Shown: positions 126 through 48,613 of the stretch, one piece after another
Numbering within the stretch: the stretch's first letter is position 1
Layout of the letters: each line of letters opens with the position of its first letter
Virus record (IMG/VR): IMGVR_UViG_3300044858_004394
Span: 1 to 64,000 of that record
Length of the DNA: 64,000 bases
Strand: one strand, 5' to 3'
Origin: a virus
Program-made: the position numbers and the translations under genes
The notes under the pieces: generated by a model
Seen by the model: the letters and a program-made list of their open reading frames with translations, nothing else
The model's database searches: none
What the model was told of the DNA's origin: nothing

Positions 126-422
126 TCAGTCGGTTGCCCGCAGCCAGTTCGTAATGTCGCTTGGCCGAGAGTAGCCGACGCGTCTGGCAACCTCGCGGCC
201 ATCTCTCAGACGAATGACTGTAGGGACCATGTCAACCAGATGGCGGGACATCGCCTCGCGGCCCTCGACGAGACGCAGCGAATGCGGCGCGTACATCTCA
301 GGCTTGGCGAGAAGGTCTCGCTTCAGCGCGCGGCACGGCGGGCACCCGTCGCGGGTGATCACCAGCAACTCGTCTGCCGCCGCCGATGCAGACATGGCAA
401 TGAGCAGGGCGAGCGTTCTCAT
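126..422 (-). CDS. Secreted thioredoxin/glutaredoxin-like protein
   Basis: The 98-residue product has an N-terminal hydrophobic signal peptide (about residues 1-16, ending ASAAA). A compact thioredoxin-fold domain follows. The redox motif CPPC is at residues 27-30 (RDGCPPCRALK) and the VPTVI segment supplies the expected cis-proline. A role in thiol-disulfide exchange outside the cytoplasm is inferred. Its start overlaps the stop of the upstream membrane-protein gene by four bases (ATGA), so the two are probably co-translated. Such a protein could protect or mature disulfides in the exported proteins encoded nearby (trypsin-like and papain-like proteases); this is an inference from position only. 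Confidence 0.8.
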   Translation of the reverse strand: MRTLALLIAMSASAAADELLVITRDGCPPCRALKRDLLAKPEMYAPHSLRLVEGREAMSRHLVDMVPTVIRLRDGREVARRVGYSRPSDITNWLRATD

Positions 423-679
423 TCCTTCACCTCGACCTTGACCGGGACGGCTCGCTCGCTCCGCGGCTGGAGCGCATAGAGCAGCCTCGTCTGCTCTTGG
501 ATCGCGAGGCTGATGTCCCTCTGCGTCTCGCCAAGTTGTTGCACGAAGGCACGGTGTTCGGCAACGAGCGGAAGCAAAACGTCATTGCGAAGAATCCAGC
601 CCGCGGCAATCGCCACGGCGACCGGAAAACCCAGCTTCTCGACCAGACCGTACGCAGCTTCTTTTGTTTGCTCTGTCAT
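419..679 (-). CDS. Small membrane protein, holin-like topology
   Basis: The 86-residue product has one strong hydrophobic segment (about residues 17-33, FPVAVAIAAGWIL) after a short polar N-terminus. A helical, probably coiled-coil cytoplasmic or periplasmic tail follows (residues 40-75). The start at 679 is chosen because longer upstream reading gives arginine/serine-rich shadow sequence. This single-pass design is shared by BhlA/UviB-type holin-like proteins, but no family match can be proven by eye. The neighbours are other small membrane proteins and a papain-like protease, so a lysis-cassette role is possible. Confidence 0.6.
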   Translation of the reverse strand: MTEQTKEAAYGLVEKLGFPVAVAIAAGWILRNDVLLPLVAEHRAFVQQLGETQRDISLAIQEQTRLLYALQPRSERAVPVKVEVKE

Positions 680-695
680 GCCCGTGTGCCCCGAG

Positions 696-1055
696 TCATC
701 TCGTGAAATCTCTCCGCCACCCCTCCATGAGGACGCGGTGCGAGGTTTCGGAAAACCACCACTTGACCAAGATTTGGACGATGGCCGACACGACGGCCGA
801 GAGGACGATGGCCCACAAGAAGCCAAATTCCGCGTCGCTGTAACCGCTGCACACGTGGTACATGCGCTTCACGTTGCCGGACACCGCGATGCCGTACACG
901 GCCTGCTCGCGAGCGTGTCTGCAATGCACGAGTTTGTCCGGCTCCCACGACTCGACGCATAACCTCACCAAGTCGCGAACCTGCTTTTGCCCCGCGATCC
1001 ACTTGCGCGGTCCGAGGCGATCCCATACGTGTGCCTGCAAGTCGTCGAAATTCAT
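696..1055 (-). CDS. Small membrane protein of unknown function
   Basis: The 119-residue product starts MNFDDLQAHVWDRLG. It has a soluble N-terminal half with four cysteines or histidines around CVESW and VHCRHARE, then a C-terminal hydrophobic helix (about residues 78-98, FLWAIVLSAVVSAIVQILV) followed by a basic tail. The start at 1055 overlaps the stop of the upstream gene by four bases. I do not recognise the family. With two other membrane proteins beside it, lysis or superinfection functions are conceivable. Confidence 0.6.
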   Translation of the reverse strand: MNFDDLQAHVWDRLGPRKWIAGQKQVRDLVRLCVESWEPDKLVHCRHAREQAVYGIAVSGNVKRMYHVCSGYSDAEFGFLWAIVLSAVVSAIVQILVKWWFSETSHRVLMEGWRRDFTR

Positions 1056-1327
1056 TGCTCGCTCGCTCTCTTGCATTCGCATGTCGGAGGGCAGGGGCAG
1101 GGGGTGCGATGCCCGTCTCCGTGAGTGATCCAGCCGTTTTCGCACCGCTTGCAGCACTCTCCGGGCTTCGGCTCCGGGCTTGGCTCTGGCTTCTCGCGAC
1201 GAAGGCGAACGATCTCTCTCGCCGTCTGCGCAGCAAGGTCGCCCTCCCACGGCGCGGCCGGCATCACGACGACCGTGCAACCGGCGAACAGTGCGATCAG
1301 CCAAGAGAAGTTTGCGGCGCGTGGCAT
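1052..1327 (-). CDS. Cysteine-rich exported or anchored small protein
   Basis: The 91-residue product has an N-terminal hydrophobic segment (residues 8-24, SWLIALFAGCTVVVM) that could be a signal anchor. After it come a charged linker with repeated E-P-K-P and a Cys-rich tail (CCKRC ... CPCPP ... CEC) that could bind a metal or form disulfides. The start codon shares one base with the stop of the protease gene upstream (TGATG). No family was recognised. Confidence 0.55.
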   Translation of the reverse strand: MPRAANFSWLIALFAGCTVVVMPAAPWEGDLAAQTAREIVRLRREKPEPSPEPKPGECCKRCENGWITHGDGHRTPCPCPPTCECKRASEQ

Positions 1328-2715
1328 CAGAAAATGTCTCCAACCCAGTTCGGCAATCGCTGCGCGGGCCACCCGTTGAAGCCAGAGAACGCGATCATCT
1401 CTCTGTTTTGGAAGTCGCTCCAGCGCGACCAGAACGAACCCTCTGGGATGTCGATGTTCGTGCCGAGGACTCTGCGCGGGCCTCCGTTCCATAAATTCCA
1501 AGAGTTCTGCACGTGAACCAAAGGCTCCCCGTACTTCTCTTTGATGATGTCTCTGTCGTCCGCTCCTAGCACCGCGAGGGCGTGGCTCCACCCGCCTTGC
1601 CGCCGGGATGCGCCGTTCTCGTCGCGCGTTGAAGACCACCCCTGCCCGCCGCAGGTCGTCAGAGCAAAACCGTTCGCCAACAGGTCTCGCACTTGTTCAA
1701 ACGTCTCGCACCTTGTCGCGGTGCGCATGAGGTGCTGGCGGCCGAACGCGGTGATGTTTTCTGGCGGAGGAGTGGCCCCGTATTTTCCGGCCAGCTTGCC
1801 GCTGTAACGAGTGAGGTCGAAGCCGAACTCCGGATAGTTTTTGCGAGGCCACAGGCCGCTCTCAGTACACATCACCTTGGCGGAAGCGCCGCACTGCCAT
1901 CCATCGCCCCCGTGCCGACGATAAAAATAAACTACTTCACTGGAGCAAATAACATCGCGATATCCCTCGACCGGCATCTCGGGCTTGTCCTCGATCTCGC
2001 CGGTCACCTCGTCTGGCCTGCCGGCCGCGATCTCGCAGCACATCGTGCAGACAGCCGCAGTCCGTGTTGAATGCGAGACGCAGTTATGCACCGCGTACCC
2101 GTTCGCGATGAATGAGTGGTCTTCCTCGACCTCTAGGCAGTAAACGTCTCCGACAAACGGCCCGCTGTCCCAAGACACGATGGGGGACTCCTCGCGGTGA
2201 ACGACGACATCACCGACCGTGAGTCCCCCGATAGCCTTCCACGTTGTCCCGCTGTCATCGACGACGACGAACCTGTGGTCCGGCGTCGCGGCGACCGGCT
2301 GATCGCTGCACTCTGCGCGAATCTCGACAAGGTGCCCGTCGAACGGTTTCTTGATCGTGGCCGTGACGCGTCGCGTCTTTCCGACATGCGACACGACGAG
2401 GTCTCCCTCGACAACGGACTCGATTGTCTTCGTCGTGCCGTCGGCCATCGACACGAGCGTCCCGGCCGGGAAGCAATCGCCGCGGGTCTGTGCGGCGCCC
2501 GGCAAGCATCCGGGGAACAGTCTCTCCATGTACACCCAAAGGGCGGTCAGCTTGCCCGCACCGGAGCCTTCAAGGCCGTGGCTTGCAATCGCATCGGCCG
2601 CATACGGGTAGAGCCCCTGACCGGACACCCACGCGTCGAACTCAGCCTTGTCTTCCGGAGTGCTAGAGCATCCGACAAGGCCAGCGAGGTATTCGGCAAG
2701 GGGATCGAACGGCAC
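1327..2715 (-). CDS. Papain-like cysteine protease interrupted by a mini-intein
   Basis: The 462-residue precursor contains a self-splicing element at residues 81-211. Joining residues 1-80 to 212-462 gives a 331-residue protein with papain-family hallmarks: Q76 before a GD-C-VSHS nucleophile (C212), a GGWSHALAVLG histidine (H378) and a VQNSWNLWNGG asparagine (N404). The order Cys, His, Asn with NSW is the classic C1-like triad arrangement. The intein sits immediately before the catalytic cysteine, which is also its obligatory +1 residue, so the protease should be inactive until splicing. The substrate is unknown; a role in lysis or head maturation is speculative. The downstream gene overlaps by one base. 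Confidence 0.85.
   Translation of the reverse strand: MPFDPLAEYLAGLVGCSSTPEDKAEFDAWVSGQGLYPYAADAIASHGLEGSGAGKLTALWVYMERLFPGCLPGAAQTRGDCFPAGTLVSMADGTTKTIESVVEGDLVVSHVGKTRRVTATIKKPFDGHLVEIRAECSDQPVAATPDHRFVVVDDSGTTWKAIGGLTVGDVVVHREESPIVSWDSGPFVGDVYCLEVEEDHSFIANGYAVHNCVSHSTRTAAVCTMCCEIAAGRPDEVTGEIEDKPEMPVEGYRDVICSSEVVYFYRRHGGDGWQCGASAKVMCTESGLWPRKNYPEFGFDLTRYSGKLAGKYGATPPPENITAFGRQHLMRTATRCETFEQVRDLLANGFALTTCGGQGWSSTRDENGASRRQGGWSHALAVLGADDRDIIKEKYGEPLVHVQNSWNLWNGGPRRVLGTNIDIPEGSFWSRWSDFQNREMIAFSGFNGWPAQRLPNWVGDIF
2083..2475 (-). mobile_element. Mini-intein (no homing endonuclease)
   Basis: This 131-residue Hint-type element is inside the papain-like protease. Block A is CFPAGTLVSM (C81), block B is TPDHRFVV (T144 and H147), block F is VYCLEVEEDHSFIANG, and block G is AVHN followed by C (H210, N211, C212). 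All residues needed for class 1 splicing are present. There is no room for an endonuclease domain, so it is probably no longer mobile on its own. Confidence 0.9.
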
Positions 2716-2718
2716 GGG

Positions 2719-3189
2719 TCACCTTTGTTGCAAAGCTGCCCATGCAATCGCGTCACAGAGGTCTGAGAACCGCTGCCTCGCCGCCTGATCTATCGCCTTC
2801 GACTCAAGGCCCATCGTCGCGACGAACGCCTTCTCGATTGCGTCGCCAAGGCCCGAGTACTTTCCGGGGGCGTTGCCGGCCAGCCGCTGCCAGCCCAGCG
2901 TCGCGGCGACCCTCGTATACTCACGGAGATACCTGCTGTCCGGGAACAGAGTCTCGCCATCTTTGTCCGCTGTCACCGCGCGGCCGACCTTTGAAAACAG
3001 GTCGGCCAGCACAGCACGGTCGGTCGCAGCCGCCCCCGCCATCGCGACGACAACCGGCTGCACTGCCTCGCGAAGCGTGCTACTTGGCGTGTCGATGCTG
3101 GGTGGCGACGGCGCCGGGGCTTTGGGCATCGGCAGGCCGAACGCCGCAACGTACCCCAGTATGACAGCCAGCGCGATGCGATTGATCAC
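2719..3189 (-). CDS. Exported protein of unknown function
   Basis: The 156-residue product begins with a signal-peptide-like segment (MINRIALAVILGYVAAFG) and a proline-rich stretch (KAPAPSPPS), then a mainly helical domain rich in alanine. No catalytic motif is visible. It lies just upstream of the intein-containing protease and overlaps the start of no other gene except by a few bases with the one at 3186. The role is unknown. Membership of an exported lysis or envelope-interaction set is inferred from context. Confidence 0.65.
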   Translation of the reverse strand: MINRIALAVILGYVAAFGLPMPKAPAPSPPSIDTPSSTLREAVQPVVVAMAGAAATDRAVLADLFSKVGRAVTADKDGETLFPDSRYLREYTRVAATLGWQRLAGNAPGKYSGLGDAIEKAFVATMGLESKAIDQAARQRFSDLCDAIAWAALQQR

Positions 3190-3491
3190 GGCGTCGTTCC
3201 CGGCTTTGTGTCCGGCTTGGGTTCCGGCCTTGCTTCAGGCGTCAGCATTACGTCGATCAGCTTCTGGCATAGCTCGACGCCCTCGGCGTTGCCGGCGTCG
3301 CGAAGCCTCGCCGCTAAGTCCAGCACCGTTCGCATCTCTGCGAGGCCGACTTCGGCGGGCGAGGCTTCTCGCTTCGCCGAGAGCCATGCGGCTGCTTTTT
3401 TCCAAACAGCCACCAAGGCGGGCGAGGCAACGAGAGCAAATGCCGCCAAGGCCGCACAGAGACGTACAACGATCTCGACATCTAGGTTCAC
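3186..3491 (-). CDS. Small membrane-anchored protein
   Basis: The 101-residue product probably starts at the GTG at 3491, which overlaps the upstream stop (GTGA). It has one hydrophobic helix near the N-terminus (residues 8-28, RLCAALAAFALVASPALVA), a helical charged region and a proline/lysine-rich C-terminus. No family was recognised. It belongs to the run of small membrane or exported proteins at 0.4-3.5 kb. Confidence 0.55.
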   Translation of the reverse strand: MNLDVEIVVRLCAALAAFALVASPALVAVWKKAAAWLSAKREASPAEVGLAEMRTVLDLAARLRDAGNAEGVELCQKLIDVMLTPEARPEPKPDTKPGTTP

Positions 3492-3769
3492 TGCGGCACC
3501 TTGCTGAGAATCCAGCGAATCAGCCGCTCGCACTCAGGGGTCTTCACGACATCCCCGAGCAGCTTCACGGCTTCGTCGTCGATGGTGGTCTGCGAACGCG
3601 ACGCCAGCCACTCGCAGGCGTCGGAGACGACGATCCCCTTGCGATATGGATCGGGTTCGTTGATGACTCTCTGCGCGTACGAAACCAGCGGCATAAGCTG
3701 CTGGAGAAGCTGAAACGTGTCCCACCAACTTGCATCGTAGGCGCCGAACTGATCCTGCTTCTCTGCCAT
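3488..3769 (-). CDS. Hypothetical protein, 93 aa
   Basis: This is an acidic, helical soluble protein (MAEKQDQFGAYDASWW...). The conserved-looking C-terminal region includes ACEWLASRSQ and CERLIRWILSKV. There is no signal peptide and no recognised motif. It is translationally coupled to the gene at 3186-3491 by a four-base overlap. The function is unknown. Confidence 0.6.
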   Translation of the reverse strand: MAEKQDQFGAYDASWWDTFQLLQQLMPLVSYAQRVINEPDPYRKGIVVSDACEWLASRSQTTIDDEAVKLLGDVVKTPECERLIRWILSKVPQ

Positions 3770-42047: not shown

Positions 42048-42455
42048 TTAGCTCCGGTGCTTCACAAGACGATTATACGCACCCGCCAAATACGAATGGT
42101 AGTCACGCTTGGCCTTATCGTCTGCGGCGTTCATCTGCCTGACGAGCTTCTTTGCCCACGACCACCCCGCGTCTGACCCCCACAATGCCCACGCGATCCG
42201 GGCATTCGAGGGAAAGTTTTTTTCGCCGGGACTCCAGCCTTCTTTTCCCTTGTTGACCTGATGCCTGTCGAAGAACGCCTTCATCCTGCGAGCCGTGGTC
42301 GGGCTGATCTTCGTGCCGTTCGACAGGTCGCGAGCGCGGGCCACGCCTACTGCCGTGCCTCCGCGGCCGTGTTCTCTTCGCCACGCCAGCCCTTTCTCTG
42401 CCTCCGACCGCACTCTCGCCGGCGGCGTGAAGTCGATGTGGTCATACCGTGCCAT
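42048..42455 (-). CDS. Phage head-associated protein (portal-adjacent family)
   Basis: The 135-residue product has IDFTPPARVRSEAEKGLAW, ISPTTARRMKAFFDRHQV, then SNARIAWALWGSDAGWSWA. This pattern, usually found near portal or minor head proteins, includes the conserved helix-turn-helix-like TTARRM and the G-G-D/S-A-G-W block. The function is not established. It overlaps the effector-like gene by one base. Confidence 0.7.
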   Translation of the reverse strand: MARYDHIDFTPPARVRSEAEKGLAWRREHGRGGTAVGVARARDLSNGTKISPTTARRMKAFFDRHQVNKGKEGWSPGEKNFPSNARIAWALWGSDAGWSWAKKLVRQMNAADDKAKRDYHSYLAGAYNRLVKHRS

Positions 42456-43579
42456 TACGCCGACCCCTTCACGGTCTGGGGCGCGTCGTCCACCCAGATG
42501 TCAACCTTGATGCCGGCGTCTTTAGCCGCGGCATCCTTGAGCTTGTCGGTGCCGACCAAGAGGACTCGCGAAAAGCTTGTTGCCCACTTGCCGAGTGACT
42601 TAGCGACGTACGCCTGATTCTCTGGGGTGTCCTCGCGACGGGACACCATGACGACCTTGTTGCCTTCGCCGACAGCCTCCGCAGCGAACTCGCCCCATAG
42701 TGCAGGGTCGGCTGCAAAAGTGCGGTCGAAGTCGATGCTAATGGTCAGTTTGCGACGCTGAAGCGACCGCACGCTCCGCCGCTTGCCGCCCTTCAGCTTG
42801 AACTCATCGATGCCGCCTGTCGCCTGCGCGTCCGGAACAAAGTATTGGACGCCTCCTCCGTTTGCGGCCTGCGGCCGGCTGTCCTTGGTACTCCACGTAT
42901 CGACGGCTGGGGACGCGTAAGACTGGAGGTATTGGGGTGCGGCTTGCACCTCAAACGTGTAAGGGATTTTATCGACGACGGGCTGGCCTTCGGATTTCCA
43001 AGCGGTGCCCTTCCTGCCGATTCCAAGCTGCTCTGGCTCCGTGCCCTCCGTGGAGAAGTAGCCGCCGGCCGGCGGTATGTTGCCGGGGGCCTGCCACTGC
43101 ACAAGCACGGAAGGCGGCGGCAGTTCCGGGGGCGGGCCGACCTTCACTGGCTTCGACCAATCGATTGCCTTCATCTGCCCTTCAAACCGCTGCCGGTCGA
43201 GCGGCTTGAGCTTCCCCGTTTTTCTGTCGAGAAAAGCCCCCTTGCTGTGCATGAAGTGCGACGCGACGACCTTTCTTGCTGCGATCTGCCGCGGAGAGTC
43301 GCCGTCCTGAGAGGCAAGCTGTACCTCGCTCTTCGATGGCTTGCGCGTCGGCACTCGCTCCGGGCGATTCGCGCGTCCCTTCGGCGTCCCCGACTTGTCT
43401 CCGCCGGCGGCCCCACCCTTGCCGCCCTTTCCGCTCCCGCATGAATTATCGACTCCGCCGCCTGACCCAGTCGGGCAGAAGGCGCGGTCCTCCGCGAGAG
43501 CGCCATCGATGAAGAACTTCCTTGCAAGCCTCCAGTACGTCTTCTCTGAGTCTTTCGTGTTACTGGTCATGTAGACCAT
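42455..43579 (-). CDS. RAFCP-motif protein with TNT/ART-like toxin domain and HAD-like domain
   Basis: The 374-residue product has three parts. Residues 1-47 are the shared N-terminal module (EKTYWRLARKFF and RAFCPTGSGGGVDNSC, 32-47). Residues about 115-260 show a toxin-like pattern (GGYFSTEGTEPEQLGIG, YLQSYASPAVDTWS, GGGVQYFVPD) resembling TNT/ART-type NAD-consuming toxins. Residues about 275-374 look like a HAD-type hydrolase (ISIDFDRTFAADP, KVVMVSRREDTPE, VDIWVDDAPQT). The toxin assignment is by eye. The module is shared with the next genes, so it is part of the same array. Confidence 0.6.
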   Translation of the reverse strand: MVYMTSNTKDSEKTYWRLARKFFIDGALAEDRAFCPTGSGGGVDNSCGSGKGGKGGAAGGDKSGTPKGRANRPERVPTRKPSKSEVQLASQDGDSPRQIAARKVVASHFMHSKGAFLDRKTGKLKPLDRQRFEGQMKAIDWSKPVKVGPPPELPPPSVLVQWQAPGNIPPAGGYFSTEGTEPEQLGIGRKGTAWKSEGQPVVDKIPYTFEVQAAPQYLQSYASPAVDTWSTKDSRPQAANGGGVQYFVPDAQATGGIDEFKLKGGKRRSVRSLQRRKLTISIDFDRTFAADPALWGEFAAEAVGEGNKVVMVSRREDTPENQAYVAKSLGKWATSFSRVLLVGTDKLKDAAAKDAGIKVDIWVDDAPQTVKGSA

Positions 43580-43590
43580 GCGTCACGCCG
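43567..43590. repeat. 24-bp junction repeat, copy 1
   Basis: The 24 bases here (stop-start junction between effector-like genes, minus-strand CGGCGTGACGCATGGTCTAC and four more) are identical to 44578-44601. The identity suggests recent duplication of the gene unit, and such a repeat could be used for unequal crossing over. Confidence 0.7.
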
Positions 43591-44590
43591 CTTTCTTTTT
43601 CTGTGCCGCTGGCCGCCGAACTGGCGGGCCAAGGTAGTCGTCATACAAGTCGAGAACCTCTCGCGAGTAGTCGATCCCAAGAGACAGCCCGGTCCGTGTT
43701 TCGGCGACAAACTCAAGCGGATTCCTTGTCGCGTATTCGCTCACCTGCGCGGCAACTTCTTTTGCGGCCTCTTCGCTCATGGGACCGCCTTTGTCGTTGC
43801 TGGACTTGTGCGACGCTCTCTCATATCTGGCCCACGGGTCGGTTGTTGGGACTCCATTAGAAGGCGCTGGATCACCCAGCCAGCGATCCAAATACTGCAC
43901 CGCCCGCCCTCCGCTTTTGAAGAAATCCGTCATTGCGCGCATGTGGTCGTGGTGCGCCATCTCGTGAACCATTGAAGTGACATGCTCCTTCCCCGCGACC
44001 CCAGCAAGCCATCCCTCTTCGACTGACTGCCTTACCTTTGCGACATCGTAGTCTGGGTCAAAGTAAAGCACTCCGTTATCCATATTGCATGCAGCCGGCG
44101 CGTTGCCGCTGATGTCCTCGACGATGATCTTCTTCGGCAGAGCAACTCCAAGCCTCTCCAGTTCTTCAACCCCTTGTGTGATCGCATCCATAGCGTCGAT
44201 GGACGCCGGCCCCTTTTTTCTTCCCTGCATAGAAGGCGGAAGCCCCATGCCGGTCCACTCTCCCTGATTGTGCTGAAGCTCAACTCCTTTGCCCGCAAGC
44301 CACTCCGTCACTTGCTCTATATGCGCCACCCGCTGCTCCCATGTGTGCCCGGTCAGCGATCCACGCGGGTCTTCTGGGAATGAACCCTTTGCGGCTGCGG
44401 GAGAGGGCGACTGCGGCGCACTTGTTCCGGCGTTTCCCTTGTTCGCGGGAGAGCAGGAGTTGTCCGGAGGCGAAGCGCCCGGACAGAAAGCACGCGACTC
44501 TCCGGGGGCGCTGTCGCCAAGAAAGTCTCTCGCGAGGCCCCAGTAGGCTTTCTCGATTTCTTTCAGGCTGCTGCCAGTCATGTAGACCAT
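43583..44590 (-). CDS. RAFCP-motif putative metallopeptidase
   Basis: The 335-residue product starts with the shared module (EKAYWGLARDFL, RAFCPGASPPDNSC at 33-46). The domain of about 270 residues follows. It begins DPRGSLTGHTWEQRVAHI, then has a DAMDAITQGVEEL helix, a zinc motif MVHEMAHHDHM (HExxHxxH, about residue 208) and ends ATRNPLEFVAETRTG ... YDDYLGPPVRRPA. HExxHxxH is a metzincin-like zinc site. A third His or Asp/Glu ligand beyond it is unclear. It is probably delivered with the head or released on infection, by analogy to MuF-type head effectors. Confidence 0.72.
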   Translation of the reverse strand: MVYMTGSSLKEIEKAYWGLARDFLGDSAPGESRAFCPGASPPDNSCSPANKGNAGTSAPQSPSPAAAKGSFPEDPRGSLTGHTWEQRVAHIEQVTEWLAGKGVELQHNQGEWTGMGLPPSMQGRKKGPASIDAMDAITQGVEELERLGVALPKKIIVEDISGNAPAACNMDNGVLYFDPDYDVAKVRQSVEEGWLAGVAGKEHVTSMVHEMAHHDHMRAMTDFFKSGGRAVQYLDRWLGDPAPSNGVPTTDPWARYERASHKSSNDKGGPMSEEAAKEVAAQVSEYATRNPLEFVAETRTGLSLGIDYSREVLDLYDDYLGPPVRRPAAQKKKAA

Positions 44591-44601
44591 GCGTCACGCC
44601 G
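44578..44601. repeat. 24-bp junction repeat, copy 2
   Basis: This is an exact copy of 43567-43590 at the next gene junction. Together they mark a duplicated stop-start unit of the RAFCP effector genes. Confidence 0.7.
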
Positions 44602-45547
44602 CCTTCTTCTTTGCTTTTGCGGCGGGCCTGCGGACGGTCGGCCCGAGGTAGTCGTCATAGAGCTTCATGACTTTGTCTGAGTAGTTGAGTCCTAGCGAGA
44701 GGCCCGTTCGCGTCTCGGCAACGAACTCAAGCGGGTTCATCGTCGCGTAGACGCTGACCTCGCTGGCGATGAGCCTCGCCCTTTGCGCGTTCGTTCGGTT
44801 TCCGCCTTCCGTGGCCCCGTATCCGAATCGTGCGGTCGGCTCCCACGGATCGGTAGTTGGCCCATAATCGCCCGGATTGCCGCACCACGCTGCCCACACC
44901 TCTCTCCCCTTTTCGTCGCCGTACTGGTCTTGCACGGACATGTTGTGGTCGTGGTGCGACATCTCGTGGATCATTGGGCCGCCGTCCTCTTGCCCTTTGA
45001 CGCCCGCCAGAAAGCGCTGCTCGACAGAGTCCCTCAGCGCCGCGATGTCATAGTCCGGGTCAAACCAAATTGTCTGCGTCCCAGAGTGGTATCCGGCCGG
45101 CGGGTTTCCGGGGATGTCCGCGATGACAAGCTTCTGCGGAATCCCGATACCGACACGCTCAAGCTCCTCGATTCCGCGAGTGACCGCGTCCATCGAGTGC
45201 ATCGTCGGCGGGTCGCTCTGGCCTGCGGTCCTGATGAATTCGATGCCCCGAGACGCGAGCCAGTCACTCACCTGCTCAAGGTGCGCAAGCCGCTGCTCCC
45301 TTGTGTGTCCCGTCAGCGTTCCGCGTGGGTCGCCCACAAGCGACCCCGGCGCGGCGGCAGGCTCCGGGGCCTTGGGCGGCGCTGGCCCGGCGGTGCCCTT
45401 ATTCGCCGGTGAGCAGGAATTATCCGGTGGTGAAGCTCCGGGGCAGAAGGCCCGCGACTCGTCGTCCGGAGCAAGCCCGACAGCGGCGCTCGCCGCTGCC
45501 CAGTACTTCTCCTCAAAGTCTTTGTCGGTCGGCAAAACGTACGTCAC
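44594..45547 (-). CDS. RAFCP-motif putative metallopeptidase paralog
   Basis: The 317-residue product starts at a GTG (45547). The architecture is the same as the neighbour: EEKYWAAASAAV module, RAFCPGASPPDNSC (32-45), DPRGTLTGHTREQRL, a DAVTRGIEELERVGI helix, MIHEMSHHDHN (HExxHxxH near residue 193) and ATMNPLEFVAETRTG ... YDDYLGPTVRR. The two proteins are clearly paralogs produced by tandem duplication. The start is three bases from the previous stop. Confidence 0.72.
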   Translation of the reverse strand: MTYVLPTDKDFEEKYWAAASAAVGLAPDDESRAFCPGASPPDNSCSPANKGTAGPAPPKAPEPAAAPGSLVGDPRGTLTGHTREQRLAHLEQVSDWLASRGIEFIRTAGQSDPPTMHSMDAVTRGIEELERVGIGIPQKLVIADIPGNPPAGYHSGTQTIWFDPDYDIAALRDSVEQRFLAGVKGQEDGGPMIHEMSHHDHNMSVQDQYGDEKGREVWAAWCGNPGDYGPTTDPWEPTARFGYGATEGGNRTNAQRARLIASEVSVYATMNPLEFVAETRTGLSLGLNYSDKVMKLYDDYLGPTVRRPAAKAKKKAA

Positions 45548-45550
45548 GCG

Positions 45551-48500
45551 TCACGCTGCCTTCTTCTTCTGCGCCGTGACGCGAACCGGAGGGCCGAGAT
45601 AGTCGTCATAGAGGTCAAGCACGCGCTGCGAGTACTCAAGGCCATAGGCGAGGCCAGCGCGAGTCTCGGCGACGAATTCAAGCGGAGTGACTGTCGCATA
45701 TCGACTCACCTCGCTCGCGATGGCGATGGCCTCTTTCGGCGACACCCGGCGTCCGTCACGGTCAACTGAATTCGATGCCATTCGCGTTCCCGGCTCCCAC
45801 GGGTTTTTCGTTGGGCCGAGGATACCGGGTCTGCCAATCCAATCGCGGCACTTCTCGACAGCGTCGTCCTTGCCCATCATGACCTTGAGCGCGGACACGT
45901 GTTCATGGTGGGCCATCTCGTGGACGATGGCGTTCCCGCCCTCGCTTCCGGGCACGCCGACCACGGCCTTGAGCAGCACCGCGTTTCGTATCGAATCGAT
46001 ACTCAGGTCTGGGTCGATATGCACCGTCTCCGCGACGATGTCATAGGCCGCCGGGGCGTTGTGGGGGTGTTCCTCAATGATGATCGTGCGAGGCACCTCC
46101 ATGCCGTGCCGTTCGATAGCCTCCACGCCGTCCGTAAGGGCCTGCATGGCCTGCATCGAAGGCGGGCCGTTGGCGTCGTCCTTCTGCTCAAGCGTGACGC
46201 CCTTGGCAGAGAGCCACGCAGCCACTTCGCCAAGGTGGTCATACCGCTGAAGCTTGGTGTGCCCCGTGACATCGCCGCGAGGGTCATCCGGCAGCGAACC
46301 CGGCTCGCGTGAGGGTTTGGGCTGTGCCGGCGGTCGAGCGCCGCCGCTGCCCTTATTGGAAGGGGAGCATGAGTTGTCCGGCGGAGAGGCGCCGGGGCAG
46401 AAGGCCCGAGAGACTCGCTGCGTCAGCCTTGGGGCTTGTCGAGCTTGCCGGCCATCGCCTTTTTGGCGAACTCCTGAAACGCCTCCGCCATCGCCTTGAA
46501 GTCCATCGCCGATCCAGCCGGAAAGTCGAAGCGAGCGAACTGCTTGGGCGCGGGGGCGCTTTCTGCTCGCTTCGTAGTCTTCGCGGCGGATTTCCCGCCT
46601 CTCATCGAGGTGCCAGATCGCGAGTTGGTTCGTTTCTTGCGCTGCATCGATGGCCTCGTCTATGTCCTCAAAACGCTTCGATAGGTCGAAGTATACCTTG
46701 CCGGTGTTCGTATCAACCCAGCCGCCGAAGTGAAGGTTTTCGCTTTCTTCAAAAGCTGCCTTGTTCGCTTCGTAGAAGCCCCTGAACGCGGCCTCGTTTA
46801 CCTGCTCATACGAATCATAAATCACCTCGGCTTCGGGTCGCACCGAAACCATGTATCCGGTCGTCGGGCTTTGGGAGGTAACCGGATGAACCGAAAAGCC
46901 GCCCGTAGCCTTCATGTTGTCGAGCGCGGCCCGCGACACGGTGCCGAACTCGACCTTCTTGCCTTTGCCCTTTACGGCTCCGGAAGCGGCCTTGTTCGCC
47001 CCAGCGCCAGCACTTCCGCCCCCGTCCCCCTTGTTCGCAGGCGCGCAAGAGTTGTCCGGCGGAGAGGCGCCGGGGCAGAAGGCCCGTTTCGCGGTACTCC
47101 CCCGCCGGCGGCCGGGCGGCGGCGGCACTTCGTCGAAAGCCCGCGACCAAATCAGCATCTGTGCCGCAGCCGACGCCTCAGAGATGGAGTTTGTCTTCGG
47201 GTCGGGCTTGTACAGCCCGTGGCTGTTGTCCTTCGGACTGCCACGGTTTCCGTCATACGCCTGCCGCAGGTGGAACTGAAGCTCCGTCATGACGGAGCGG
47301 CCGGCTTGCGTCTGTAGCTCCATCGTCATGTGGACGGCGCCGTAGCCGGTTTCGCTCTTGTCCTCAAACCTGTTCTTGATCGACACAGCCATGCCCGCCT
47401 TCTCGGCCTGCTGCTGCACGGACCGCACGGCGTCGCCAAGTGCTTCCGGGGTGTCTGCGATCAGTGATCCGCGGACGGCGTCCTTGAGTTCGCGGTTGAC
47501 GATTGTCGCGTCAGAAACTTCCGGGCCGAGGTTGTCTTCCTTGCGAACCCGCGGCACTTTCCCTGCCAGCGACTCAGGAATCTTGAGCATGTGCGTTCCG
47601 AACGCATGCTCGCGAAGGTAGTCGTGTGCGGGGTTGTTTGGGTCTGCTTCTCCAAACGACGCTTCAACGCCCGCGTCCTTGGCGGCCTTCTCGACAATTT
47701 CCTTGTACTGCGGCACAACGTCGCGTGCGTCCGCAAGCAACTCATCGACGGTTGTGGCTGAGTTGTTTGTCTCGCTCGACTTCTTGCTTGGAACGCCAAC
47801 CCGCTCCGCAAGCTGTCGCTTTACATCAGCGTGGTGTGTTTGCAGCTTCGCGTAGTCGCGGGGCACAACGGCGCCTTTCGGAAACTCGTCCGACACAATC
47901 GCGCCGTCCACGTAGGAGCCGCCAGCCACCTTGTCTGCGTGCTTCTCAAGCGCCGGCACGCTGACATCGACAGCACGAACCCGCCCGCTGCTTCCGCTTC
48001 CGCCACTCCCGCCCTTGCCGCTGCCGCACGAGTTGTCCACGCCGCCGCCGGGGCCGGTGGGGCAGAAGGCGCGACTGCCGCGTCCCTTCATCAGCTTCTT
48101 GTAGTCGGCTTCGCCCATGACGCGAGCCGGCATGTCCTTGCCGAGAGCGCTGTACATGGCAACGCGGTGGTGCCCGTCCACGATATGAAGGTTGCCGTTG
48201 CCGTCGTCCCACAGCTTGGTGACGTAGCCTTCGCGAAACGGCTCGTCGCCTGACACGACCTTCTCAATCGGCGCCGTCTTCAGCGTCTCTTCGTTCGCCT
48301 TGAGCGTGGTCCCGGCGGGGATCGTCGTGACCGGCAGTTCGTTCCACTTGTCGTCCGGAACCTCGCGAGCCTTCTCGACGACCTTCGCGTTCTCGGGCGA
48401 GTAGTCCATGCCGTACTCAGAGGCAAAGACACGGCCCGGACCGGCATCACCGGAGTCCTTCGCAGAGCATGTGTTATCCACTCCGCCGCCGGGGCCTGTG

Positions 48501-48613
48501 GGGCAGAAGGCGCGAATGCTTCTGCTCGACTTGGTCGGCCTCTTCAGCATCATCGAAGCCGCTGCCCAGTACTCCTTGCGGCTGTTGTCGTCCGCGACAA
48601 ATACGAAAGCCAT
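45551..48613 (-). CDS. Multi-module RAFCP polyprotein (ParB-like, RelA/SpoT-like, unknown, metallopeptidase); probably frameshifted
   Basis: One open frame of 1020 residues has four RAFCP modules starting at residues 34, 181, 510 and 736. Module 1 carries a ParB/sulfiredoxin-type domain (IVDGHHRVAMYSALGKD). Module 2 resembles a RelA/SpoT nucleotidyltransferase fold (SIKNRFEDK, TGYGAVHMTMEL, MTELQFHLRQ). Module 3 has FGGWVDTNTGKVYFDLSK and NQLAIWHLDE, of unknown function. Module 4 is the HExxHxxH domain (VHEMAHHEH near 897). Between modules 3 and 4 (46423-46560) the protein-like frame is another one, so a +1 shift or an indel near 46552 is likely. Confidence 0.65.
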   Translation of the reverse strand: MAFVFVADDNSRKEYWAAASMMLKRPTKSSRSIRAFCPTGPGGGVDNTCSAKDSGDAGPGRVFASEYGMDYSPENAKVVEKAREVPDDKWNELPVTTIPAGTTLKANEETLKTAPIEKVVSGDEPFREGYVTKLWDDGNGNLHIVDGHHRVAMYSALGKDMPARVMGEADYKKLMKGRGSRAFCPTGPGGGVDNSCGSGKGGSGGSGSSGRVRAVDVSVPALEKHADKVAGGSYVDGAIVSDEFPKGAVVPRDYAKLQTHHADVKRQLAERVGVPSKKSSETNNSATTVDELLADARDVVPQYKEIVEKAAKDAGVEASFGEADPNNPAHDYLREHAFGTHMLKIPESLAGKVPRVRKEDNLGPEVSDATIVNRELKDAVRGSLIADTPEALGDAVRSVQQQAEKAGMAVSIKNRFEDKSETGYGAVHMTMELQTQAGRSVMTELQFHLRQAYDGNRGSPKDNSHGLYKPDPKTNSISEASAAAQMLIWSRAFDEVPPPPGRRRGSTAKRAFCPGASPPDNSCAPANKGDGGGSAGAGANKAASGAVKGKGKKVEFGTVSRAALDNMKATGGFSVHPVTSQSPTTGYMVSVRPEAEVIYDSYEQVNEAAFRGFYEANKAAFEESENLHFGGWVDTNTGKVYFDLSKRFEDIDEAIDAAQETNQLAIWHLDERREIRREDYEASRKRPRAQAVRSLRLSGWIGDGLQGDGGGVSGVRQKGDGRQARQAPRLTQRVSRAFCPGASPPDNSCSPSNKGSGGARPPAQPKPSREPGSLPDDPRGDVTGHTKLQRYDHLGEVAAWLSAKGVTLEQKDDANGPPSMQAMQALTDGVEAIERHGMEVPRTIIIEEHPHNAPAAYDIVAETVHIDPDLSIDSIRNAVLLKAVVGVPGSEGGNAIVHEMAHHEHVSALKVMMGKDDAVEKCRDWIGRPGILGPTKNPWEPGTRMASNSVDRDGRRVSPKEAIAIASEVSRYATVTPLEFVAETRAGLAYGLEYSQRVLDLYDDYLGPPVRVTAQKKKAA
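46423..46647 (-). CDS. Alternative-frame C-terminus of module 3 (frameshift segment)
   Basis: This alternative frame reads KQFARFDFPAGSAMDFKA ... KKAMAGKLDKPQG before a TGA at 46423. It has protein-like composition, unlike the Arg/Gly-rich sequence of the main frame over the same bases. A C5 run (minus strand, 46552-46556) marks the probable shift point. It is listed separately because the real C-terminus of module 3 may end here. Confidence 0.45.
   Translation of the reverse strand: MQRKKRTNSRSGTSMRGGKSAAKTTKRAESAPAPKQFARFDFPAGSAMDFKAMAEAFQEFAKKAMAGKLDKPQG

Follow-up and report, generated by a model that had tools for sequence, protein, structure and literature searches.

The DNA analysed (the window) comprises 64 kb of a 69,747-base metagenomic virus record, in which genes for a terminase, a portal, a head maturation protease and a major head protein are present. 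An open reading frame on the minus strand, running from 2715 to 1327 with a GTG start, encodes a 462-residue bacteriophage protein in which a previously undescribed papain-like enzyme is split by a mini-intein. The coordinates given for the gene and the intein in an initial annotation hold, the strand having been left unstated there. The features of the locus are as follows:

1327..2715, minus strand: precursor gene, papain-like enzyme plus mini-intein (462 aa, GTG start, stop codon at 1327-1329)
2476..2715, minus strand: N-extein, residues 1-80, with the C-terminal end ...AAQTRGD (alignment with the intein-free alleles L002/L003)
2083..2475, minus strand: class 1 mini-intein, 131 aa, C81...H210-N211, no endonuclease domain (Pfam/NCBIfam, exact gap in intein-free alleles, alignment with 18 other inteins of the site)
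1330..2082, minus strand: C-extein, residues 212-462, bulk of the papain-like catalytic domain (family profile, E 2e-119; predicted fold)
2080..2082, minus strand: Cys212, the +1 nucleophile of the intein and the predicted catalytic Cys, Cys81 once spliced (invariant in 54/54; precedes helix 213-231 in the model)
2488..2490, minus strand: Gln76 in the N-extein, likely oxyanion-hole Gln, equivalent to papain Gln19 (invariant in 54/54; role from knowledge of papain)
1582..1584, minus strand: His378, His247 once spliced, predicted catalytic His (invariant in 54/54)
1504..1506, minus strand: Asn404, Asn273 once spliced, of the NSW motif, predicted catalytic Asn (invariant in 54/54)
126..422, minus strand: thioredoxin-like gene with a signal-peptide-like start and a CPPC motif (Pfam Thioredoxin_2, E 3e-7; L002 has an ortholog next to its intein-free allele)

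Intein models match both ends of residues 81-211 (nt 2083-2475). The Pfam Intein_splicing match (E 1.3e-9) lies above the model cut-off; TIGR01443 (intein_Cterm) matches with E 9.2e-9, and the N-terminal model TIGR01445, with E 5.7e-5, falls slightly below its cut-off. The residue set of a class 1 intein is complete: Cys1 (C81), a block B TxxH motif (TPDH), H210, N211 and Cys+1 (C212). Block F reads VYCLEVEEDHSF. Its Cys at F:4 suggested a class 3 intein, an assignment that we rejected because Cys1 is present, and the combination of a missing position-1 nucleophile with a WCT motif is not seen. No endonuclease domain, such as a LAGLIDADG homing intein carries, was found in the 131-residue element by Pfam or in the alignment of the inteins at this site, and no other intein was found within the window. 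Comparison with the intein of the viral contig L042 points to purifying selection (dN 0.24, dS 1.80, dN/dS about 0.14, with dS near saturation), as is expected if splicing is needed.

The gene also exists without the insert, at 80-85% identity, in two sister viruses and one Phycisphaerales metagenome-assembled genome (MAG). The two viral alleles, L002 and L003, came from a scan of viral contigs and are 84-85% identical over the full protein of 331 aa, that is, 462 minus 131; the alignment gap corresponds exactly to residues 81-211, and QSRGD|CVSHS is continuous there. Hence, the insert is not due to chance, and, since the empty alleles run straight across GD|CVSHS, the +1 residue is native to the host protein. 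The MAG allele (L084) is the third close empty relative and reads TRGD|CVAHS at the site. The homologous allele L034 likewise lacks the in-frame insert; L034 and L035 are empty alleles beside the occupied L042 and L043, and the exteins of L034 and L042 are 100% (N) and 97.6% (C) identical. The mini-intein identity proposed in the initial annotation is thus borne out by the model matches, the full class 1 residues and the exact gap in intein-free alleles, and the element would be expected to splice as a class 1 intein.

Empty sites are common. In a scan using patterns outside the intein, L042 and L043 alone carried one among the 80 loci listed. A group of loci missed by the first family scan and suspected of harbouring inteins (L122-L157) reads GDCVSW without an insert. 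Homologs were found in 14 of 392 genomes of Planctomycetota, where the protein reads through the site with no intein. Several of the intein-free homologs encoded by the planctomycete genomes L239-L252 have N-terminal transmembrane-like stretches.

The host protein had been called papain-like from its motifs. All 54 of the diverse relatives compared have Gln76, Cys81, His247, Asn273 and Trp275 (numbered as in the spliced protein), which gives the Cys-His-Asn order of papain-like C1 enzymes with an oxyanion Gln before the Cys; the role of Gln76 in the oxyanion hole is what we take it to be from knowledge of papain. The papain triad aligns once residues 81-211 are removed, the point on which the initial annotation had made its proposal depend. 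The intein-free protein was modelled (pLDDT 62, pTM 0.71), and the model gave 55 PDB matches in Foldseek at E<=0.001, and the best 50 of these 55 are papain/cathepsin-type cysteine proteases, with xylellain first (E 2.7e-6). In a deeper model of the precursor, most extein blocks are above pLDDT 85-90 and Cys212 lies immediately before helix 213-231; the extein again has xylellain as its top match (E 3.3e-8), followed by cathepsins and papain-type enzymes. The intein part of this model matches BIL2, PI-SceI and gp41-1 at weak E-values, and its core (residues 125-189) is of low confidence (pLDDT about 30-50). The papain fold is assigned from these predictions, in which target TM values of about 0.4-0.6 indicate a related fold and not a close relative. 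The extein has no match in Pfam, including its C1 family profile, in PHROGs or among PDB sequences. The invariant residues and the predicted fold support a papain-like enzyme, which, once spliced, would presumably be a protease. They also agree with the earlier proposal that the +1 Cys of the intein is the predicted catalytic Cys, the residue being Cys212 of the precursor, Cys81 once spliced, and invariant in the 54 relatives. The 80-residue N-extein may contain an ordinary propeptide.

No extein homolog was detected in isolate phages (INPHARED, five queries) or plasmids (PLSDB, one query). Other INPHARED matches centre on the intein, and the two that were inspected, in Microcystis phage Mvi-JY20 and Eggerthella phage LE2-3, are in other host proteins. 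With INPHARED giving no member of the family, metagenomic contigs and assembled genomes are the basis of all statements made here.

Scans that used either the intein pair or the C-terminal junction showed that many intein-bearing proteins belong to this family, and they place no fewer than 14 distinct inteins, in diverged viruses, at one D|C position; most are 340-402 aa long and bear LAGLIDADG endonuclease motifs. Mini-inteins are present in the window and in L042/L043 (131 aa), L088 (130 aa) and L089 (158 aa), with L193 as a remote 142-aa case. Inteins of 339-402 aa are present in L090, L091, L092, L093, L097, L100, L184, L186, L187, L188, L191, L192, L195 and the remote L229. On an extein tree of 63 rows, well-supported branches force at least eight changes of intein state; because inteins guided part of the sampling, this is a minimum number of events and not a frequency. 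Pfam LAGLIDADG_3 is found in the site inteins of L090, L091, L097, L184 and L229, and weakly in that of L195. In L187 (2597-5788), one predicted protease contains two inteins, the first at the catalytic Cys (380 aa), bearing LAGLIDADG motifs, and the second immediately behind NSWG, the catalytic Asn motif (338 aa, junctions INSWG|C...N|SNW), with a reported LAGLIDADG_3 match. The position of the second intein at the catalytic Asn motif implies that conserved active-site motifs are targeted in general. Phage inteins in active centres, with active endonucleases, are well established (PMC5050341, PMC7765530).

The interpretation that we favour, with a probability of about 0.85, is that the Q..GD|CVSH motif is a homing hot spot and that the mini-intein of the window is a relic, the dependence on splicing being a by-product and not an evolved switch. 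Since related viruses carry endonuclease-bearing forms or no insert at the same spot, the element looks mobile and selfish, sheltering at the active site and not having evolved there to switch the enzyme on, and homing endonucleases appear to have driven the invasion of the site. Full-length inteins bearing LAGLIDADG would invade the region of the catalytic Cys codon, where the DNA is strongly conserved, and move between viruses; some would lose the endonuclease and persist as mini-inteins, the window carrying one of these. During splicing, Cys81 of the intein would attack the carbonyl of Asp80, the N-extein would be transferred to Cys212, Asn211 would cyclise with release of the intein, and an S-N shift would restore the native Asp80-Cys81 bond. 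Gln76, Cys81, His247 and Asn273 would form a single active site only after these steps. The precursor is probably inactive, because the intein separates the oxyanion Gln from Cys-His-Asn and Cys212 is still joined to Asn211; the dependence of activity on splicing would simply follow from where such an element can survive.

The initial annotation had proposed that splicing could time protease activity, citing the thioredoxin-like gene (126-422) as a pointer to redox control. Under such a natural zymogen switch, conditional splicing in response to redox, zinc or another cue would have evolved to time the protease in infection. This we consider unlikely, even though activity should depend on splicing, given that the +1 position and the predicted catalytic Cys coincide, and even though Cys1 is kept in 19 of 19 and the block-F Cys in 17 of 19 site inteins. 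A disulfide between these two cysteines is a possible redox route, and in other systems splicing is blocked by a disulfide or by zinc at the cysteines of the intein (PMC6195587, PMC7360933, PMC4031507). However, among inteins at large only one residue is more frequent than Cys at F:4 (PMC4031507), and intein-free alleles dominate, with two occupied loci among the 80 listed in the intein-neutral scan. The close relatives L002, L003 and L084 are empty, as is the near-identical L034 beside L042, and so are the planctomycete homologs, and the site is repeatedly targeted by endonuclease-bearing inteins. No conserved regulatory partner was seen. An ortholog of the thioredoxin-like gene also adjoins the empty allele in L002, which removes this neighbour as evidence for a specific redox partner; given this and the signal-peptide-like start, its proximity says nothing for redox control. 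Also unlikely, in our judgement, is that the inteins of this site were co-opted as splicing-controlled zymogens, with oxidation (a disulfide between Cys1 and the block-F Cys) or zinc holding the precursor, and a reducing cytoplasm or a phage thioredoxin releasing a protease that shares the splicing nucleophile. A later regulatory use of an intein that persists selfishly is possible.

An ancestral intein inherited vertically, with many losses and little transfer, is quite improbable and, for the window, strongly disfavoured. In agreement with vertical descent, the identities of the inteins correlate with those of the exteins (r 0.74), and inteins and exteins branch alike within the L088-L195 group. 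In contrast, the inteins of the window and L042 are sisters on the intein tree (94/96; 98% of bootstraps) and have 69% of their residues in common, whereas their exteins share 39% (N) and 50% (C) identity and reject a clade of the two (p 6.2e-52). The window intein is also about 15-20 points more similar to several other inteins than its extein is. The simplest reading of these relationships would be a horizontal movement of the intein or of an endonuclease-bearing parent; as the window intein has no endonuclease, any recent mobility of its own would have to come from recombination or a helper.

It is very unlikely that the element is a degenerate Hint domain, still able to cleave but not to ligate, so that the protein would be dead or remain in two chains: HINT/BIL structures do occur among the sequence and fold matches, but Cys1, TxxH, His-Asn and Cys+1 are intact, the dN/dS is about 0.14, and every catalytic residue is kept in the extein. 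An assembly chimera can practically be dismissed, for although the window is known from a single metagenomic record, an intein of the same length, 69% identical and at the same site and phase, is found in two other contigs (L042 and L043), and the open frame is uninterrupted.

Seen as a homing hot spot, the locus represents a new site and a new host family for a known kind of element. Like the class 1 mini-inteins and LAGLIDADG inteins of phage proteins, for example those at the P-loop of mycobacteriophage TerL, it combines an invariant active-site motif, sporadic presence, and endonuclease-bearing and empty alleles, and in TerL1-a, too, the +1 residue is a functional nucleophile, the P-loop Thr (PMC5050341). 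Unlike in TerL, the intein here interrupts a papain-like enzyme, whose predicted catalytic cysteine serves as the +1 residue. The enzyme resembles papain-like C1 peptidases, the nearest solved structure being xylellain (3ois), in its predicted fold, its Gln-Cys-His-Asn residues, its NSW motif and a Cys starting the central helix; it differs from them in having no Pfam, PHROGs or PDB sequence match and about 80 residues before the Cys. The Gln-Cys spacing is 5, compared with 6 in papain. Inteins also occur in proteases such as archaeal Lon, which is not a cysteine protease. The chloroplast ClpP intein (PMC5784728) similarly lies inside a protease, but ClpP is not a cysteine protease either. As in inteins whose splicing depends on redox state or zinc (Msm DnaBi1, PMC6195587; DnaB zinc inhibition, PMC7360933), the catalytic cysteines of the window intein could be oxidised or metal-bound; conditional splicing has been shown by experiment for Msm DnaBi1 and DnaB, whereas it is a possibility for the window intein. 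We found no paper on an intein at a cysteine-protease nucleophile, which is weak evidence of absence as subscription literature lay mostly outside the search.

With this locus comes a papain-like family that has no name so far and is widespread in phages and Planctomycetes, together with an intein site at which the splicing nucleophile and the predicted nucleophile of the host enzyme are one atom. Full-length, mini- and empty alleles, including the L034/L042 pair and the two-intein L187, offer a good natural series for comparing active-site inteins as selfish passengers or regulators, and the mini-inteins are candidate splicing tools with natural Asp-|Cys junctions.

Several minor observations concern the family and the window. 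The relatives L088, L089, L187, L191, L192 and L195 have twin-arginine-like signals at the N-terminus, such as LRRDFLKWG, and in L187 Pfam TAT_signal matches with E 0.003. This suggests that some family members may be exported, possibly folded and already spliced. In the large-phage contigs L066, L069, L071, L073, L074, L075 and L077, a second, larger ORF near the protease (e.g., L073:7216-8991) matches the family profile and has Gly-Thr around the place of the catalytic Cys (e.g., DGGTAHAI, KSGTAHGI); it is perhaps an inactive paralog. Small membrane or exported protein genes flank the protease in the window (126-1343 and 2719-3769, minus strand), and this gene order is kept beside the intein-free allele in L002. 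Finally, adjacent ORFs at 42455-48613 (minus strand) have repeats such as SRAFCPxGxxxxDNSC in common and make up a series of repeated proteins that lies downstream of the portal gene.
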